DNA of 36,023 bases from an uncultured Clostridia bacterium (GTDB lineage Bacteria; Bacillota; Clostridia; Oscillospirales; Oscillospiraceae): assembly GCA_946061515.1 (NCBI GenBank), contig CAMGRL010000018.1:1-36023 (forward strand). The letters run 5' to 3'. Positions 21,064-30,729 of the stretch are shown in pieces. Made by a program: the position numbers and the translations under genes. The first letter of the stretch is position 1, and each line of letters opens with the position of its first letter. Under the pieces are notes generated by a model. It had not been told where the DNA came from. It saw nothing but the letters and a program-made list of their open reading frames with translations, and made no database searches.

Positions 21064-21172
21064 CCAAATCGAAGCCCAACGAAGTGGGTTCGATTTGGAG
21101 AGGAAGAAGGAAGGAGCGGAGTGCAGTTTTCCGCGAACAGCGGGAAACGGAACGGCGCGAGTTTCTTCTGAC
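21064..21172 (+). repeat. Family D structured element, copy 1
   Basis: This 109-base element begins with a long hairpin (21064-21073 with 21089-21098, plus an inner CCCA/TGGG). A purine-rich linker with GAGGAAGAAGGA follows, then a second hairpin (TTTTCCGC-GAACA-GCGGGAAA), and it ends GTTTCTTCTGACG. A second copy of equal layout lies inverted at 26401-26508. Paired stem positions differ between copies yet remain complementary. GAAGAA in the linker can also pair with TTCTTC near the end. Confidence 0.8.
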
Positions 21173-21321
21173 GAAAGGGGAGCTGGCACGGCGAAGCCGT
21201 GACTGAGGGGTTTGCAGAAGTTACCACCGCGATAACGTAGAGCGTTTGCTGGTTTTCGCTGCGGTTTTAAACCCCTCCGCCTCACTGCGTTCGGCACCTC
21301 CCCTTTCAGGGGAGGCATTCT
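21173..21321. repeat. Family A element, copy 3, with long inverted ends
   Basis: The left end reads GAAAGGGGAGCTGG, hairpin CACGGC-GAA-GCCGTG (21187-21201), TGAGGGGTTT. The right end, from about 21269, reads AAACCCCTCCGCCTCA and closes with GGCACCTCCCCTTTC. The ends are imperfect inverted repeats about 40 bases long around a 60-base core, like a miniature inverted-repeat element. Confidence 0.75.
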
Positions 21322-21340
21322 GGGAGCGCACCATAAAGGT

Positions 21341-21455
21341 GCCCCCTTGGGGGGAGCTGCCGCCGCAGGCGGCTGAGGGGGGGTACTAACGCACTGCCGA
21401 CTTTGCCCCCTACCGTCTCCGCCTGCGGCGGAGACACCTCCCCCTCAGGGTGAGG
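21341..21455. repeat. Family A structured repeat, copy 4 (long form)
   Basis: It has the same layout as the 18034 copy: GGGGGGAGCT, hairpin GCCGCC-GCA-GGCGGC (21359-21373), TGAGGGGGGGTAC, then CCCCCTACC, hairpin GTCTCCGCC-TGC-GGCGGAGAC (21415-21435) and ACCTCCCCCTCAGGG. Both internal stems differ from copy 2 but remain perfectly paired. Confidence 0.8.
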
Positions 21456-21467
21456 CTTTAAGCGGTC

Positions 21468-22205
21468 TTATTTTACGCTCTTCCAGTAATCCAAAGTGCC
21501 GAAGCGGCGCTCGGTCTGGGTCAGGAGGTATTGCTCGGCGGCGGCGGACAGCCGGTTCAGGGCCCCGTCGGACAGTCGGAAGGAAAACAGCTGCTTTGCC
21601 GGGGCGGAGACGATATAGCGCATGGCCTCCAGACTCTCCGTGTCAAGCTGCACGGTGCTTCCGGCGTTCCGGCAACGGCGGCAGCTGATGTGGCCGTCGG
21701 CCAGGCTGAGAATCGGCTCCTCCGGCGCTTCGCTGCCGCAGACAGCGCAGGCCGACAGATTGGGCTCATAGCCCGCAAGGCACATGAGCCGCAGCTCAAA
21801 GGCGGCCTTGATGTGCCTGGGGGGATACATTTTTTTGCTCAGGGCATAGAGGGAGTTCAGGCCCAGCTGCAAAAGGGCTGCGTCCGGCTGGTCCTCCACG
21901 CTGAGGGCCTCCAGACACTCGGCAAAATAGCAGCCCAGGGCAAAATCCGCAATGTCCGTGCGCAGACCGGAAAAAGGCTCGATCACGCTGGCCTCGTTCA
22001 CCGTCCATTTGCCCCGGTTTCCAAACAGGGTCATCTCCCCGTAGGTGAGCTGCTGGGTGGCGGCGGCGGTTTTGCTGCCCTTGCGCAGCGCGCCCCGGGC
22101 CTTGGCCGTGATCTTCCCGTCGGTGGAGGTAAAGAGGGTGAGCATCCGGTCGGCCTCCTTGTACCTTACCTCCCGCAGCACAAGGGCCTTTGTGGTGTTG
22201 AACAT
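21468..22205 (-). CDS. recO: DNA repair protein RecO
   Basis: RecO anneals single-stranded DNA and, with RecR, loads RecA at gaps. The 245-residue protein has the N-terminal OB-fold (TTKALVLREVRYKEADRML, residues 4-22) and a helical C-terminal domain. A zinc site is formed by Cys153, Cys156, Cys175 and Cys178 (CAVC and CRRC). Placement beside yqzL and era is the standard Firmicutes order. Confidence 0.95.
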   Translation of the reverse strand: MFNTTKALVLREVRYKEADRMLTLFTSTDGKITAKARGALRKGSKTAAATQQLTYGEMTLFGNRGKWTVNEASVIEPFSGLRTDIADFALGCYFAECLEALSVEDQPDAALLQLGLNSLYALSKKMYPPRHIKAAFELRLMCLAGYEPNLSACAVCGSEAPEEPILSLADGHISCRRCRNAGSTVQLDTESLEAMRYIVSAPAKQLFSFRLSDGALNRLSAAAEQYLLTQTERRFGTLDYWKSVK

Positions 22206-22216
22206 TTATGTAACTC

Positions 22217-22366
22217 TCAGTCCTCGGGGCGGGGGTCAGACCCCGTCCCCGCTCTATCCTTATCGTCTTTTGGCCTGGCTTTGCGCTGGACGCTCTTGTA
22301 GAGCATATAGCAGAGCGGATCCCCGGTATCGGCAAAGGCACGCCAGACTGCGTCAGCTTTCAACAT
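22217..22366 (-). CDS. yqzL: YqzL-like small protein
   Basis: A 49-residue ORF starts at ATG 22366 with AGGTGG close upstream and stops with TGA at 22217-22219, between era and recO. Its N-terminal part MLKADAVWRAFADTGDPLCY is the YqzL pattern (short protein with MLKAxxxWxxFxxTG, then YLxYK-like MLYK). The C-terminus is a charged, poorly conserved tail. YqzL has no known function but is a marker of the era-recO interval in Firmicutes. It is easily missed because of its length. It ends 11 bases before the recO start, so the three genes are probably cotranscribed. Confidence 0.85.
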   Translation of the reverse strand: MLKADAVWRAFADTGDPLCYMLYKSVQRKARPKDDKDRAGTGSDPRPED

Positions 22367-22431
22367 GACCACCTCTCATGCTCATAGTATCTGCATGAGC
22401 GCCTGGCCTTATTGCTGGCAGATTTTTTCAA

Positions 22432-23325
22432 TCAATCATTATTAAAGCCGAAGTTGCGAAGCTGGGCCAGGGAATCCCGCCAGTTCTCCTTGACCTTCAC
22501 CCAGGTCTGAAGATACACCTTGGTGCCCATAAAGGCCTCAATATCCGTGCGGGCCAGTTCCCCGATCTTTTTCAGCATAGCGCCCTTTTTGCCGATAATA
22601 ATGCCCTTATGGCTGTCCTTTTCGCAGTAAATGGTCACTTCCAGGTCGATAATGCCGTTATCCCGCTCGGAAAATTTGGTGACCTCCACAGCGGTGCCGT
22701 GGGGGATCTCCTTGTCCAGGCACTGCAGCAGCTTTTCCCGCACCAGCTCGGCGCAGATCTGCCGCTCCGGCTGGTCGGTGATCATATCGTCGGGGAAGAG
22801 ATGGGGGCCCTCCAGGGCGTATTTCTCCATCTCGTCCATCAGCTCCTCCAGCCCCTCGCCGGTTTTGGCGGAGACGGGGATGACGGCGTCAAAATCGAAG
22901 GCCTGGGCGTACAGGGCCATGACGGAAAGGAGCCGGGTCTTGTCCACGGTGTCGATCTTGTTGATGACCAGGATGGCGGGGGCGCCGGTGCTTTTCAGGC
23001 GCTGGATCAGTTCCTCCTCCTGGGGGCCGATGGCGGCCACAGGCTCCACCAGCAGCAGAACCGCGTCCACATCCGCCACACTCTCCTTCACCACGTTCAC
23101 CATGTAGTCCCCCAGCCGGGTACGGGGCTTGTGAAAGCCCGGGGTGTCCATCAGCACAAACTGGGTGTTCCCCCGGCTGACGATGGCGGTGATGCGGTTG
23201 CGGGTGGTCTGGGGCTTATTGGATACGATGGCGATCTTTTCGCCCACAAGGGCGTTGGTCAAAGTGGATTTTCCCACATTGGGTCTGCCGCAGATGGTAA
23301 TCATGGCGGCTTTGGTGTTTGTCAT
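22432..23325 (-). CDS. era: GTPase Era
   Basis: Era binds the 3' end of 16S rRNA and couples 30S assembly to GTP hydrolysis. The 297-residue protein has G1 GRPNVGKS (13-20), G3 DTPG (60-63) with FHKPR after it, G4 NKID (122-125) and a C-terminal KH domain ending VKVKENWRDSLAQLRNFGF. The start lies one base past the ybeY stop. In Bacillus, cdd and dgkA lie between ybeY and era; here they are absent. Confidence 0.97.
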   Translation of the reverse strand: MTNTKAAMITICGRPNVGKSTLTNALVGEKIAIVSNKPQTTRNRITAIVSRGNTQFVLMDTPGFHKPRTRLGDYMVNVVKESVADVDAVLLLVEPVAAIGPQEEELIQRLKSTGAPAILVINKIDTVDKTRLLSVMALYAQAFDFDAVIPVSAKTGEGLEELMDEMEKYALEGPHLFPDDMITDQPERQICAELVREKLLQCLDKEIPHGTAVEVTKFSERDNGIIDLEVTIYCEKDSHKGIIIGKKGAMLKKIGELARTDIEAFMGTKVYLQTWVKVKENWRDSLAQLRNFGFNND

Positions 23326-23326
23326 A

Positions 23327-23809
23327 TCAGTCTTTATCTCCCATAATTTCTTTTTCTCTCTGTCTCATCTGGCGCTTCATTTCGCCCTCGTCCACATGGT
23401 CGTAGCCCAGCAGGTGCAGCACGGAGTGGACCGTCAGATACATGATCTCCCGCTCGTAGCCGTGGCCGAATTCCTCGCCCTGCTCCTCACACCGGGGGAC
23501 GGAGATCATCATATCCCCCAGCAAAATGAGGCCGCTGTCCGGTTCGGTTTCGCAAATGTCCGGGTCAAAGTCCCCCGGCGTCAGCTCGTTCATGGGGAAG
23601 GACAGCACGTCGGTTGCCCGGTCCACGTCCCGGAATTCCCGGTTTACCCGGCGGATGCCCTCGTCGTCGGTGAGCATGACGCTGACAAGGCAGGGCACCG
23701 TTACCCCCTCGGCTTCAAGGGCCATGTTCACGGCCTTTTTGATGAGGGCGGCGGAATTGTTGTGGCCCAGGTTTTTCACTTCCCGGCTGATCTCTATCTG
23801 ATGCTCCAT
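23327..23809 (-). CDS. ybeY: Endoribonuclease YbeY
   Basis: YbeY is a zinc-dependent RNase acting in 16S rRNA maturation and ribosome quality control. The 160-residue protein has the metal motif HSVLHLLGYDH, with His128, His132 and His138, and the upstream DVLSFPMNE strand typical of the family. AGGGG lies six bases before the ATG at 23809, and the gene starts two bases past the phoH stop. Confidence 0.96.
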   Translation of the reverse strand: MEHQIEISREVKNLGHNNSAALIKKAVNMALEAEGVTVPCLVSVMLTDDEGIRRVNREFRDVDRATDVLSFPMNELTPGDFDPDICETEPDSGLILLGDMMISVPRCEEQGEEFGHGYEREIMYLTVHSVLHLLGYDHVDEGEMKRQMRQREKEIMGDKD

Positions 23810-23811
23810 GT

Positions 23812-24816
23812 TTATCCCCTCTTATATTTTTTCGGCGGCAGCTTTTTCACCGAGGGCGCGGGGTTTTTCTTGTCGTACTCCTCGTAGGCCTCGATGATCT
23901 TCTGCACCAGCCGGTGGCGCACCACGTCCGCGCCGGTGAGCTTGCAGATGGCGATGTCCTCGATGCCGTCCAGCACCTTCATGGCCACCTTCAGGCCGCT
24001 GGTCTTGTCCTCCGGCAGGTCGATCTGGGTGATGTCGCCGGTGATGACCACCTTGGAGCCGAAGCCGATGCGGGTGAGAAACATCTTCATCTGCTCCCGG
24101 GAGGTGTTCTGGGCCTCGTCCAGGATGATGAAGCTGTCGTCCAGGGTCCGGCCGCGCATGTAGGCCAGGGGGGCCACCTCGATATTGCCCCGCTCCAGAT
24201 ATTTCTGGTAGGTGTCCGCGCCCAGCATGTCGAACAGGGCGTCGTACAGGGGGCGCAGGTAGGGGTCAACCTTGCTCTGCAGGTCGCCGGGCAGAAAGCC
24301 CAGCCGCTCCCCCGCCTCCACCGCCGGGCGGGTCAGGATGATGCGGTTGACCTCCTCGGCCCGGAAGGCGGCCACGGCGGCGGCCACCGCCAGATAGGTC
24401 TTGCCGGTGCCGGCAGGGCCGATGCCCAGGGTGATGGTGTTTTCGGCGATGGCCTCGCAGTACTCCTTCTGGCCCAGGGTCTTGGGCTTGATGGGCTTGC
24501 CCTTGGCGGTGATGCAGATCACGTCCCCGGCCAGCTCGTTGATCTTGGTCTCCTTGCCCTCGCCCACCAATTTCAAAATGTAGCGCACGTTCTGGGCGTC
24601 GATGTTCTCCCCCTTGGCCGCCAGGGTCAGCAGGCCGTTGATGGCCTTTTCCGCCAGCATGACGTTTTCTGCCTCGCCGCAGATGTGGATCATGTCGTCC
24701 CGGTCCAGCACCTTTACCCCCAGCTCCGTCTCGATGATGCGCAGATTCTGGTCAAAGGAGCCGAACACGCTGATCACATGCTCCATTCTCTCCACTTCAA
24801 TGGTTTTTTCTATCAT
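23812..24816 (-). CDS. phoH: PhoH-family ATPase
   Basis: PhoH-like proteins are P-loop ATPases with a likely RNA-helicase role, usually encoded beside ybeY. The 334-residue protein has an N-terminal KH-like segment (about 10-65), Walker A GPAGTGKT (133-140), VEAGERLGFLPGDL and the Walker B DEAQN. A basic C-terminal tail (PPKKYKRG) follows. All motifs are intact. Confidence 0.94.
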   Translation of the reverse strand: MIEKTIEVERMEHVISVFGSFDQNLRIIETELGVKVLDRDDMIHICGEAENVMLAEKAINGLLTLAAKGENIDAQNVRYILKLVGEGKETKINELAGDVICITAKGKPIKPKTLGQKEYCEAIAENTITLGIGPAGTGKTYLAVAAAVAAFRAEEVNRIILTRPAVEAGERLGFLPGDLQSKVDPYLRPLYDALFDMLGADTYQKYLERGNIEVAPLAYMRGRTLDDSFIILDEAQNTSREQMKMFLTRIGFGSKVVITGDITQIDLPEDKTSGLKVAMKVLDGIEDIAICKLTGADVVRHRLVQKIIEAYEEYDKKNPAPSVKKLPPKKYKRG

Positions 24817-24842
24817 AAACGTTTCCTTTTCCGGGGAGAGGC

Positions 24843-26018
24843 TCAGCTCTCCTCCTGTTTTACCTCTCTCGTTTCCGCGATATTTTCCAGACAGTGGGCG
24901 TGCATGGTGACGCAGAGAAGCTCCCCGCCGTCATTGACCGAAAAATCCGCCGACAGCACTTCCCCGTCCACCGTCTCCGCCAGGTAGGCCCGAAGAGCCG
25001 CCTCCATCTCTGCCCCGGCGGCGCTGGGCTGCGCCTCCGTTTCGTAAAAGGACAGCTCCTCCTTTATTATGCTCACCGGCAGGAGAAACAGCCTTTCTAT
25101 GCCTATTTTATATTCATAGATGATTTTATCACACTCGTCAAGTTCATTTCTACCACTGACATACAAATTTATTCGTTTTTCTCCGAATTTCAGGGCAAAA
25201 CGGAAAATTTTTTTGGTCTGGCCGGTTTTATGGCTCTCCACAGCCGGGCGGACGGCGCTGAGCTCCGTCCAGGTCTCCGCCGTAACGCTGCCGGCGGCCC
25301 GCACCTGCCGGGGCAGAGCGGTGATGCTGTCCATGGTGCTGCTGACCAGCAGTTCCCCCTCCACCACCGCCTGGCCGGGGGTGACTTGCGGCTTGCCGCT
25401 GAGCACCGACATTCTGGCAATGACGCCGGTTTTTGCGGCCACAATGTCCGCCGCGTCCGCTTCCTCAACAATTTCCGGCTTTTCCTCCCGCTCTAAAATC
25501 AGAACCGTTGCCCGGGAGCCACGGACGTTCACCGTCATCCAGGCGATCTCCGGCAGCTCCACTAAAACGCGGCTTCGCACCAGGTCGGAATTGAGGCCGA
25601 AGCGGAAGCTGCCCTGCTCCACGCCGCAGCTGGCCAGGGCCCGCAGCACCTGGGCCTGGGTCAGCTTCTGGCAGCCCAGCACCTGAATGTCCCAGATGAA
25701 AAGGGAGCTGAGAAACAAAAGCCCCGCCGTCAGCAGCGCAAAGATCAGCAGCAGCATTCGCCGCTTCACCAGTCTCCGGCTTTTGCTGCCGCCGCTCTGG
25801 CTCAGCTTCTCCGTCTCGCACATGCAGCGGCGGGAAAGGGTCTGAAATTCCTCCGCCCGGTTTTCAAACACCGTTACCCGCAGGGTACAGGCGTCGATGC
25901 TTTCCAGGTCCATCAGCTCCAGGGCCTGCATGGCGCAGGCGTTCAGTACCGACTCCGGGCAGGCCCCGCAGAGCTCATAGCGGACCGTGCCTCTCACTTT
26001 CCGGTCAATTCTGCTCAT
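24843..26018 (-). CDS. yqfD: Sporulation protein YqfD
   Basis: YqfD is a mother-cell sporulation membrane protein of unclear biochemical role. The 391-residue protein has an N-terminal cytoplasmic domain (1-85), a single transmembrane helix (about 88-109, after SRRLVKRR) and a large extracytoplasmic part. That part begins with a strand such as IWDIQVLGCQKLTQAQVL, resembling the POTRA-like region of the family. Its ATG directly follows the yqfC TGA (TGATATG), and phoH follows after 26 bases. The yqfC-yqfD-phoH order is the Firmicutes norm. Confidence 0.92.
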   Translation of the reverse strand: MSRIDRKVRGTVRYELCGACPESVLNACAMQALELMDLESIDACTLRVTVFENRAEEFQTLSRRCMCETEKLSQSGGSKSRRLVKRRMLLLIFALLTAGLLFLSSLFIWDIQVLGCQKLTQAQVLRALASCGVEQGSFRFGLNSDLVRSRVLVELPEIAWMTVNVRGSRATVLILEREEKPEIVEEADAADIVAAKTGVIARMSVLSGKPQVTPGQAVVEGELLVSSTMDSITALPRQVRAAGSVTAETWTELSAVRPAVESHKTGQTKKIFRFALKFGEKRINLYVSGRNELDECDKIIYEYKIGIERLFLLPVSIIKEELSFYETEAQPSAAGAEMEAALRAYLAETVDGEVLSADFSVNDGGELLCVTMHAHCLENIAETREVKQEES

Positions 26019-26019
26019 A

Positions 26020-26301
26020 TCACTCCCACTCCACCGATTGCAGCTTCCCGCATATCAAAAGCTCCCCTTTGTTCATGGCCGCAAGCCGCAGATCGCTGCC
26101 CCGCAGGACGATTTTGCCCCGCTTCACAGCGATCTGGATCTGCTCCGGGCCGTATTCCAGTATGCCGCAGTGGTTTTCGATCAGGGCGCGGCGGTTTGCC
26201 GTCAGGGTCAGCTTTGCCGAGCCCAGCAGCGCCTCTCCCGGCAGGTCCAGCCTGTCGGCGATGTCCTCTCCCAGTCCTCTCCGCTTTCTCAGCGCCGCCA
26301 C
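26020..26301 (-). CDS. yqfC: Sporulation protein YqfC
   Basis: YqfC is a small sporulation protein (about 93 residues) with a conserved N-terminus and the motif LTLTANRRALIENHCGILEY followed by IQIAVKRGKIVLRG, all present here. The function is unknown; in Bacillus it is expressed in the mother cell under sigma-E. The start is uncertain. GTG at 26301 touches the GGGAG Shine-Dalgarno with no spacer, whereas a CTG codon at 26292 lies eight bases from GGAGG and begins RKRRGLGEDIADRL-like sequence matching the usual family start. Confidence 0.88.
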   Translation of the reverse strand: MAALRKRRGLGEDIADRLDLPGEALLGSAKLTLTANRRALIENHCGILEYGPEQIQIAVKRGKIVLRGSDLRLAAMNKGELLICGKLQSVEWE

Positions 26302-26372
26302 CTCCCTTTTTCAACATGCCTGTGCTTATCCTGTAAATTGCCGGCCGCCCGTAGGTTTGGGGGCCTCTTCGC

Positions 26373-26549
26373 GGGCCGCCACATAGGGCGGCCCCTACGT
26401 CGTCAGAAGAAGCTCGCGGCGCTCCGTTTCCGCTTTCAGCGAAAACTGCGCTTTGTTCCCTCCTTCTTCCTCTCCGATTTGAACCCATTTCATTGGGCTT
26501 CAAATCGGTCTTCATGGAGAACGGTAGGGGCGGCCCTGCGTGGCCGCCC
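26373..26549. repeat. Family B inverted-repeat element carrying a family D copy
   Basis: 26-base arms at 26373-26398 and 26524-26549 are inverted copies. The inner bases GCCGCCC/GGGCGGC in one arm are swapped to GGCCCTG/TGGCCGC in the other, so each arm keeps its own hairpin. Where other family B elements have about 20-27 bases between arms, this one has 125 bases, mostly family D. Confidence 0.7.
26401..26508 (-). repeat. Family D structured element, copy 2
   Basis: The reverse complement aligns end to end with 21064-21172. The first hairpin stem is CCGATTTGAA/TTCAAATCGG instead of CCAAATCGAA/TTCGATTTGG: compensating changes at more than one base pair. The linker GAGGAAGAAGGA is identical. 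Confidence 0.8.
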
Positions 26550-26672
26550 GTGGTTCTCCCCTCTGCTGTCATGCTGCATGCTGCGGCATACGAATGGCTT
26601 TGCCCCCTTTGTCTTTCCGTATAACTTTATGTTCTCACTCATAATTTGATACATGGACAAGGAGGTCTGACC

Positions 26673-30556: not shown

Positions 30557-30589
30557 AGTTACAATCCTTTCTATCTGTTCGCGGGATGA

Positions 30590-30666
30590 GGGCGACCGCA
30601 AGGGTCGCCCCTACGGCTTCTTCTGTAGTTTCGGCGGAAATGTAGGGGCGACCCTTGCGGTCGCCC
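30590..30666. repeat. Family B element with perfect 25-bp inverted arms
   Basis: The arms at 30590-30614 and 30642-30666 are exact inverted repeats, separated by 27 bases. Each arm also contains its own hairpin (GGGCGACC-GCAA-GGGTCGCCC). It lies between HAD and glpK and resembles a miniature inverted-repeat element. Confidence 0.85.
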
Positions 30667-30729
30667 GCTTGCCCGGGAGAGAACCACGCAGCCGCCTGCG
30701 GTGAATGGTGAAGAAGCAGCAAAATCACC

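Follow-up and report, generated by a model that had tools for sequence, protein, structure and literature searches.

Related Systems and the Element D

Repetitive extragenic palindromic (REP) elements and bacterial interspersed mosaic elements (BIMEs), with their REP-associated tyrosine transposases (RAYTs), are short, folded, dispersed in spacers and found in inverted pairs, with a GTAG or GGAG tetranucleotide at the foot of the REP hairpin. Elements of the IS200/IS605 family insert without target duplication. Miniature inverted-repeat transposable elements (MITEs) and the ERIC/IRU and BOX sequences are non-coding, structured, intergenic and about 100–130 bp long, BOX also having tandem modules. 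Retroelements resembling short interspersed nuclear elements (SINEs) have a precise 3′ end and 5′ truncation, group IIC introns insert beside stem-loops, and integrative elements use the 3′ ends of tRNA and transfer-messenger RNA (tmRNA) genes, with gene 3′ parts copied at the junction. The subject of this analysis is element D, a folded repeat present in two inverted copies in a stretch of 36,023 nucleotides (the window) from an uncultured Clostridia bacterium of the Oscillospiraceae (GCA_946061515.1, contig CAMGRL010000018.1).

D shares with REP elements and BIMEs their short, folded and dispersed form and their inverted pairs, and differs from them in its length of about 110 bp, its three stems, its long duplications and in not lying near the RAYT genes tested; the GTAG/GGAG foot is not in the D consensus (67 contexts, by eye). 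Unlike IS200/IS605, D has duplications in 11 contexts, most contexts being without. All the likenesses to MITEs, ERIC/IRU and BOX listed above hold, tandem modules included, whereas docking at gene borders and duplications of 24–123 bp set D apart from these families as they are generally described. In contrast to a MITE, its ends do not match terminal inverted repeats (consensus, by eye) and the duplication length is not fixed (24–123 bp). The precise 3′ end and 5′ truncation recall SINE-like elements, D having variable duplications as well, and insertion beside stem-loops recalls group IIC introns; unlike either, D occurs in five D-rich genomes without a match to the reverse transcriptase family RVT_1, has stop-codon sites without a consistent stem-loop and gives no group II match in the Rfam scans of the window and of D loci. 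Finally, integrative elements use the same gene 3′ ends and likewise copy gene 3′ parts, whereas D is only about 110 bp long, contains no integrase gene and has many different targets per genome. D is filed under none of REP/RAYT, IS200/IS605, MITE or retroelement, because the features tested for membership were not found, with the exception of the precise 3′ end, 5′ truncation and variable duplications of a target-primed retroelement, which D has.

D is most likely mobile. The reading preferred here, with a probability of roughly 50%, is that D is a non-autonomous mobile element whose fold would be recognised in trans and whose 3′ GACG would be joined to DNA, with gene borders favoured. This reading draws on the dispersal of copies across the class, the covarying fold with its scarce G·U pairs, the docking of the 3′ end, orthologous spacers with and without D, flanking duplications, and shortened copies in which the 3′ end survives.

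Copies and Fold of D in the Window

The two copies and their parts are the following:

21064–21173, plus strand: D copy 1, from hairpin 1 to the terminus GACG (R1 model, 128.1 bits)
21064–21098, plus strand: hairpin 1 of copy 1 (arms 21064–21073 and 21089–21098, extended by a CCC/GGG tip)
21105–21112, plus strand: 5′ strand of stem P3 of copy 1 (folding, covariation)
21126–21148, plus strand: hairpin 2 of copy 1 (folding, covariation)
21162–21169, plus strand: 3′ strand of stem P3 of copy 1, immediately 5′ of GACG (21170–21173)
26401–26508, minus strand: D copy 2, from hairpin 1 to the terminus GACG (R1 model, 128.2 bits)
26474–26508, minus strand: hairpin 1 of copy 2 (folding, covariation)
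26460–26467, minus strand: 5′ strand of stem P3 of copy 2 (folding)
26405–26412, minus strand: 3′ strand of stem P3 of copy 2, immediately 5′ of GACG (26404–26401)

An earlier, sequence-only reading of this DNA had aligned the two copies end to end and had reported that both arms of hairpin 1 are altered between them with pairing kept, that hairpin 2 also differs and still pairs, and that the purine linker GAGGAAGAAGGA is identical in both. These observations were all borne out, the border of copy 1 being one base longer than had been thought. A third stem, P3, had been missed: the 3′ tail, through CTTCTTCT/TTTCTTCT, forms pairs with the linker stretch AGAAGGAG/A, and hairpin 2 is enclosed between the two. 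The order of the fold is thus hairpin 1, purine linker, P3 closing round hairpin 2, and the unpaired terminus GACG.

The folding z-scores are −6.98 for copy 1 and −5.44 for copy 2, equalled by none of 200 shuffles, and a repeat search of the window paired the two copies in inverted orientation over 72 nt, with 81% complementarity. When the two conserved ends were combined into an exact pattern, it occurred at four places in this genome, and the reversed-pattern control at none; the recurrence of D is beyond chance.

Copies and Distribution

Further copies, for which a covariance-model search had been suggested, were found in this genome, the genus, the order and the class. A model built from five D copies (R1) gave 12 matches in this genome at E ≤ 10, ten of them at E ≤ 2.5e-7. 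At least 95 of the 102 genomes of the genus match at E ≤ 1 (at most 37 candidates scored per genome), and five D-rich genomes hold 85, 51, 40, 32 and 26 matches at E ≤ 0.01; three genus genomes picked as matchless again gave no D match on rescanning. Matches extend to 67/394 genomes and 43/169 genera of the order (E ≤ 0.001), and to 28/391 genomes and 23/223 genera in a sample of the class (E ≤ 0.0001). Of these 28 genomes, 24 are from outside the order; the remaining four, the present one among them, are of the order or closer still. The main match ends in GACG in all nine class loci that were read.

The genome collection has 43 stretches with the exact two-end pattern, including one from a record that bears the label Bacteroidales, and viral contigs have two. 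Two viral-contig records (L080 and L079), which may be phage or host DNA, carry four and three strong or moderate D matches. No match to D copy 1 was returned by blastn against phage and plasmid records.

For the loci scanned, Rfam 15 bears out the statement that D is not a named RNA: no family for D was found in the window at gathering scores, or in sets of 5, 18 and 7 loci at E-value thresholds, and tRNA and tmRNA were the sole families passing in the D loci. Two candidates were rejected. The hammerhead ribozyme has the core motif CUGANGA, which the CTGACGA of D resembles, yet the other core parts are absent from D by eye. Clostridiales-1 RNA (PMC2864571) gave one weak match in locus L013, at 21.6 bits against a gathering score of 48, which was gone in a later 18-locus scan that included L013. 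No account of D was recognised in the literature at the level of titles and starts of abstracts, with subscription papers mostly outside; absence in print is not shown by this.

Docking of the GACG End at Gene Borders

The 3′ end of D was found next to tRNA genes, at the 5′ end or, with D antisense, at the CCA; it also adjoins tmRNA ends, REP-like hairpins and, again with D antisense, stop codons. Four alignments (A4–A7) provided 233 distinct copies after the removal of duplicates and short matches, and the 200 with GACG fall into 126 right-flank clusters. Genes were called with a home-made open reading frame (ORF) scorer and aragorn and loci were chosen by model score, so the docking fractions are valid for this sample. 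The right flank is an ORF stop in 12 clusters, the 3′ side of a tRNA in ten, the 5′ side of a tRNA in four and of the tmRNA in two; the rest comprise seven REP-like hairpins, eight ORF starts within 40 nt and 83 others.

The distances are short. GACG stands at offset 0 at 7/12 ORF stops, at offsets 0, 0, 0, 0, 1, 1, 1, 3, 3 and 6 on tRNA 3′ sides, and at 2, 4, 4 and 5 on tRNA 5′ sides; counting the discriminator base and CCA, it mostly lies about 4–5 nt from the acceptor stem on both sides. Both neighbours were called for 102 clusters. In 28 of these, GACG is no more than 6 nt away from a stop codon or from an end of a tRNA or tmRNA, while placing D at random, in either orientation, in its own spacer would give 2.96. 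Hairpin 1 comes as close as 6 nt to a called gene in just 4/126 clusters. Beyond the genus, tRNA docking with GACG was seen in 7/29 order loci, with one more ending in GACA, and three of the nine class loci dock at offset 0 at the CCA end of tRNA-Leu or tmRNA. This docking rule is the new, testable part of the finding.

Two simple target rules were tried and rejected. A hairpin at every docking site is true of tRNA, tmRNA and REP sites and not clear at stop codons. Complementarity of the left segment to the target is not general (8.7% of 184 against 3.6% of 1818 mispaired at score 20); some such segments were noted, next to REP-like hairpins and, by eye, in L263, L268, L283 and L286.

Orthologous Spacers with and without D

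The sequence-only reading had suggested mobility from the repeats flanking each copy, and this is supported by the presence and absence of D at orthologous spacers, as well as by the duplications described below. Within the Gly-Arg-His-Gln-Lys tRNA cluster, spacers that lack D measure 13–25 nt between Gly and Arg (12 loci) and 3–64 nt between Gln and Lys (12 loci), and several of the genomes concerned carry D elsewhere. Eight loci from seven genomes bear D. CGTC, the reverse complement of the D end, begins 1 nt past the Gly CCA in all eight, three or four of which keep a short remnant only, and 0 nt past the Gln CCA in seven (3 nt in L229). Of the eight loci, six have sense GACG 4 nt upstream of tRNA-Lys; in L229 the distance is 2 nt, and L028 lacks it. 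In L126 and L128, from genomes without model matches, the Gly-Arg spacer is TTTTTGACGATAT, which puts GACG 4 nt ahead of tRNA-Arg, either as a remnant or by chance.

An unlikely alternative to targeted joining is that D inserts anywhere in spacers and that later deletions from its 3′ end stop at DNA under selection, mimicking docking. This would account for stop codons, CCA ends and tRNA leaders all being limits, and contexts distant from borders do exist. However, the Gly-Arg spacer of L030 and L118 keeps about 24 nt beyond D, equal to whole D-free spacers; with that much left on the far side of D, little spacer was trimmed there. Moreover, the hairpin 1 side is not similarly trimmed.

At ssrA, 26 of 30 loci were readable: D or a 3′ remnant of it lies on the 5′ side in 15 and at the CCA end in one, and no D was seen by eye in ten. 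Two of these ten (L317, L328) gave weak model matches (E ~0.002) overlapping the tmRNA 3′ region, which may be chance. tmRNA genes lacking D on the 5′ side often carry another hairpin directly 5′ (L319, L325, L329, L336, L342).

The frequency of D on the 5′ side of tmRNA, the other hairpin in several D-free loci and the double changes that maintain the fold would suit a cis-acting RNA that selection keeps in place, for instance as a leader of tRNA, tmRNA and other transcripts or as an element in their processing. This is improbable, since D points towards the gene on both sides and is therefore sense before genes and antisense after them. It was also not seen by eye in ten of the 26 readable ssrA loci, and 7/102 genus genomes are without a match among the matches listed, in a scan whose filters were tightened for more than 40 genomes.

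Duplications, Truncated Copies and Arrays

A duplication starts within 12 nt of GACG in 14/125 contexts, compared with 3/2473 mispaired flanks. Three of the 14 (L051, L104, L274) were put aside for possible tRNA or REP paralogy, leaving 11 in which direct duplications of 24–123 bp, representing the 3′ part of a gene or tRNA, surround D. In the contexts that were checked, the duplicated 3′ parts belong to Ffh (L021), a short-chain dehydrogenase (L253), triosephosphate isomerase (L268, L283), flagellin (L286), enolase (L263), a frame without Pfam match (L265) and tRNAs (L266, L270). The layout is a complete gene before D and a remnant after it.

The 3′ end pattern occurs at 60 places in six genomes, 12 of them without a strong model match among the matches listed. 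Reading seven such places revealed deleted or variant copies and no transposon. Six copies are 5′-truncated or internally deleted while keeping an intact 3′ end, and two variant full copies stand in tandem. Two of the six shortened copies abut in-frame stops, of frames open for 252 and 331 codons. In several arrays, GACG is present on the last unit only and the first unit is truncated; L013, L017, L022 and L034 hold arrays that open with such a unit. Together, duplications, truncated copies and arrays suggest that the 3′ end of D is joined first.

A precise 3′ end, truncated 5′ ends, long variable duplications and arrays opening with a truncated unit could also be produced by SINE-like, target-primed retroposition, in which a reverse transcriptase supplied in trans would make D copies from an RNA. 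This link was rejected and retroposition is improbable too, since RVT_1 was matched in 33/102 genus genomes and in none of the D-rich genomes G000, G088, G098, G109 and G114, weak evidence because the assemblies are incomplete, and since G·U pairs are depleted in the D stems, as set out below.

In L057, L077, L061, L071, L102 and L116, outward-pointing D pairs share one hairpin 1 to form a larger palindrome.

Selection on Structure and the Nature of the Folded Strand

In 131 aligned copies (127 distinct), 96.6% of stem cells pair and double changes occur at 31/33 pairs, in an alignment whose fitting to the covariance model biases it towards structure. Double-change cells number 677, against a shuffled mean of 147, and pairing falls to 50–58% when the partner column is slid by one; RNAalifold returned nearly identical stems. 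With one copy per independent right-flank context (n = 67), 354 double changes stand against 33 one-sided ones. The many-copy alignments thus covary strongly, supporting the earlier view that this is the pattern of a selected structure and not of decaying junk. D is structurally selected, and one-sided steps are avoided in its stems.

Leaving aside two fixed wobbles, G·U pairs make up 2.0% of hairpin 1, 0.6% of P3 and 1.3% of hairpin 2; the corresponding figure for tRNA stems (78 distinct tRNAs of the loci) is 7.0%. The fixed wobbles are G·T in 61/67 contexts and T·G in 58/66; as they would be A·C on the opposite strand, the folded strand is the plus strand. Copies both sense and antisense to their neighbours, together with the rarity of G·U, suit folded DNA better than a cis-acting RNA, and folded single-stranded DNA fits the G·U depletion better than RNA does, short of proof. 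Palindrome repair by template switching could remove G·U pairs too, but should not retain two wobbles. A fold maintained almost solely by double changes offers a clear test case for whether DNA or RNA is the target of selection.

Search for a Mobilising Gene

A folded strand with fixed mismatches would also suit movement by a Y1 transposase, as for REP or IS200/IS605-type elements, and in this genome 7/10 model copies abut a GTAGGGGC REP-like hairpin, with TAGGGGC directly after the GACG region. Nevertheless, a link to RAYTs was rejected. Y1_Tnp was matched in 56/102 genus genomes and in neither of the D-rich genomes G098 and G109, an absence that is again weak evidence given the incomplete assemblies; around 20 divergent Y1 genes (76302 bases), D gave 0 matches at E ≤ 1; and the duplications would be unexpected for the IS200/IS605 family. 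Y1-driven movement is very unlikely. RAYT-like frames were seen in several loci (L198, L201, L207, L215, L216 and others), with RGDPCGRP-like stretches that resemble in-frame REP hairpins, and REP arrays precede some of them.

Proposed Mechanism

According to the preferred reading, the plus strand of D would fold into hairpin 1 and then P3 closing round hairpin 2. A putative enzyme acting in trans would recognise this fold and join the GACG 3′ end to DNA, favoured targets being stop codons and, for tRNA or tmRNA genes, the position just past the CCA or about 4 nt ahead of the 5′ end. The other end of D would be joined tens of bases off, which can duplicate 24–123 bp of target, or else part of D would be lost, leaving copies that retain the 3′ end only.

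Several points weigh against this reading. No mobilising gene was found, RVT_1 and Y1_Tnp each being missing from D-rich genomes, and no autonomous version of D was seen. By the tests used, 111/125 contexts have no duplication and 74/102 are undocked. No consistent hairpin was found at the stop-codon docking sites, so a single target rule fails to cover all sites. Finally, hairpin 1 has more G·U than A·C cells (26 against 4), which a strand-symmetric DNA process would not give.

A bolder and doubtful proposal is that D represents a new class of mobile elements in Clostridia, with machinery that would recognise expressed genes by their ends, be these structured RNA termini or stop codons, perhaps via the transcript, the ribosome or a nick arising there, and join a folded strand 3′ end first with long duplications.

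If the preferred reading is true, a major gut lineage has had the spacers next to its tRNA and tmRNA genes and many of its protein genes shaped by one overlooked folded element. The frequent landing of D a few bases from a gene border would imply a mobilising enzyme with an unusual target rule, a natural route for inserting beside genes without breaking them, and repeats left blank by annotation would be explained.

Neighbours and Other Structured Repeats

In the window, copy 1 is flanked by a MutS2-type gene (PF00488, PF01713) and recO (PF11967, PF02565), while copy 2 lies between a YabP-family gene, which adjoins yqfD, and a gene with a sub-cut-off Gate as its sole Pfam match. Three repeats next to the copies are neighbours and not part of D:

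21174–21210, plus strand: repeat of another family (AAAGGGGAGC..), directly 3′ of the GACG of copy 1, with an inverted match about 7.3 kb away
26359–26399, minus strand: REP-like hairpin (TAGGGGCC..), directly 3′ of the GACG of copy 2 (inverted pair I3)
26524–26550, minus strand: inverted mate of that REP-like hairpin, before copy 2

Elsewhere, a second structured type stands between D and an intact tRNA or tmRNA gene (L115, L261, L266, L270, L307, L333). In it, the gene 3′ end is copied first, hairpins occupy about 100 nt after that, and the same gene segment follows as its reverse complement; no Rfam family was matched. A third type follows gene 3′ ends (L265, L269), with the reverse complement of a gene segment, a core common to both loci, TACAAGCGTTTT..AAAACCTTGG..CAGGCGGAAT, and a copy of the gene 3′ end. 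The window also holds, at 30574–30682, two 41-nt inverted arms of the GTAGGGGCGACC family with 27 nt between them.

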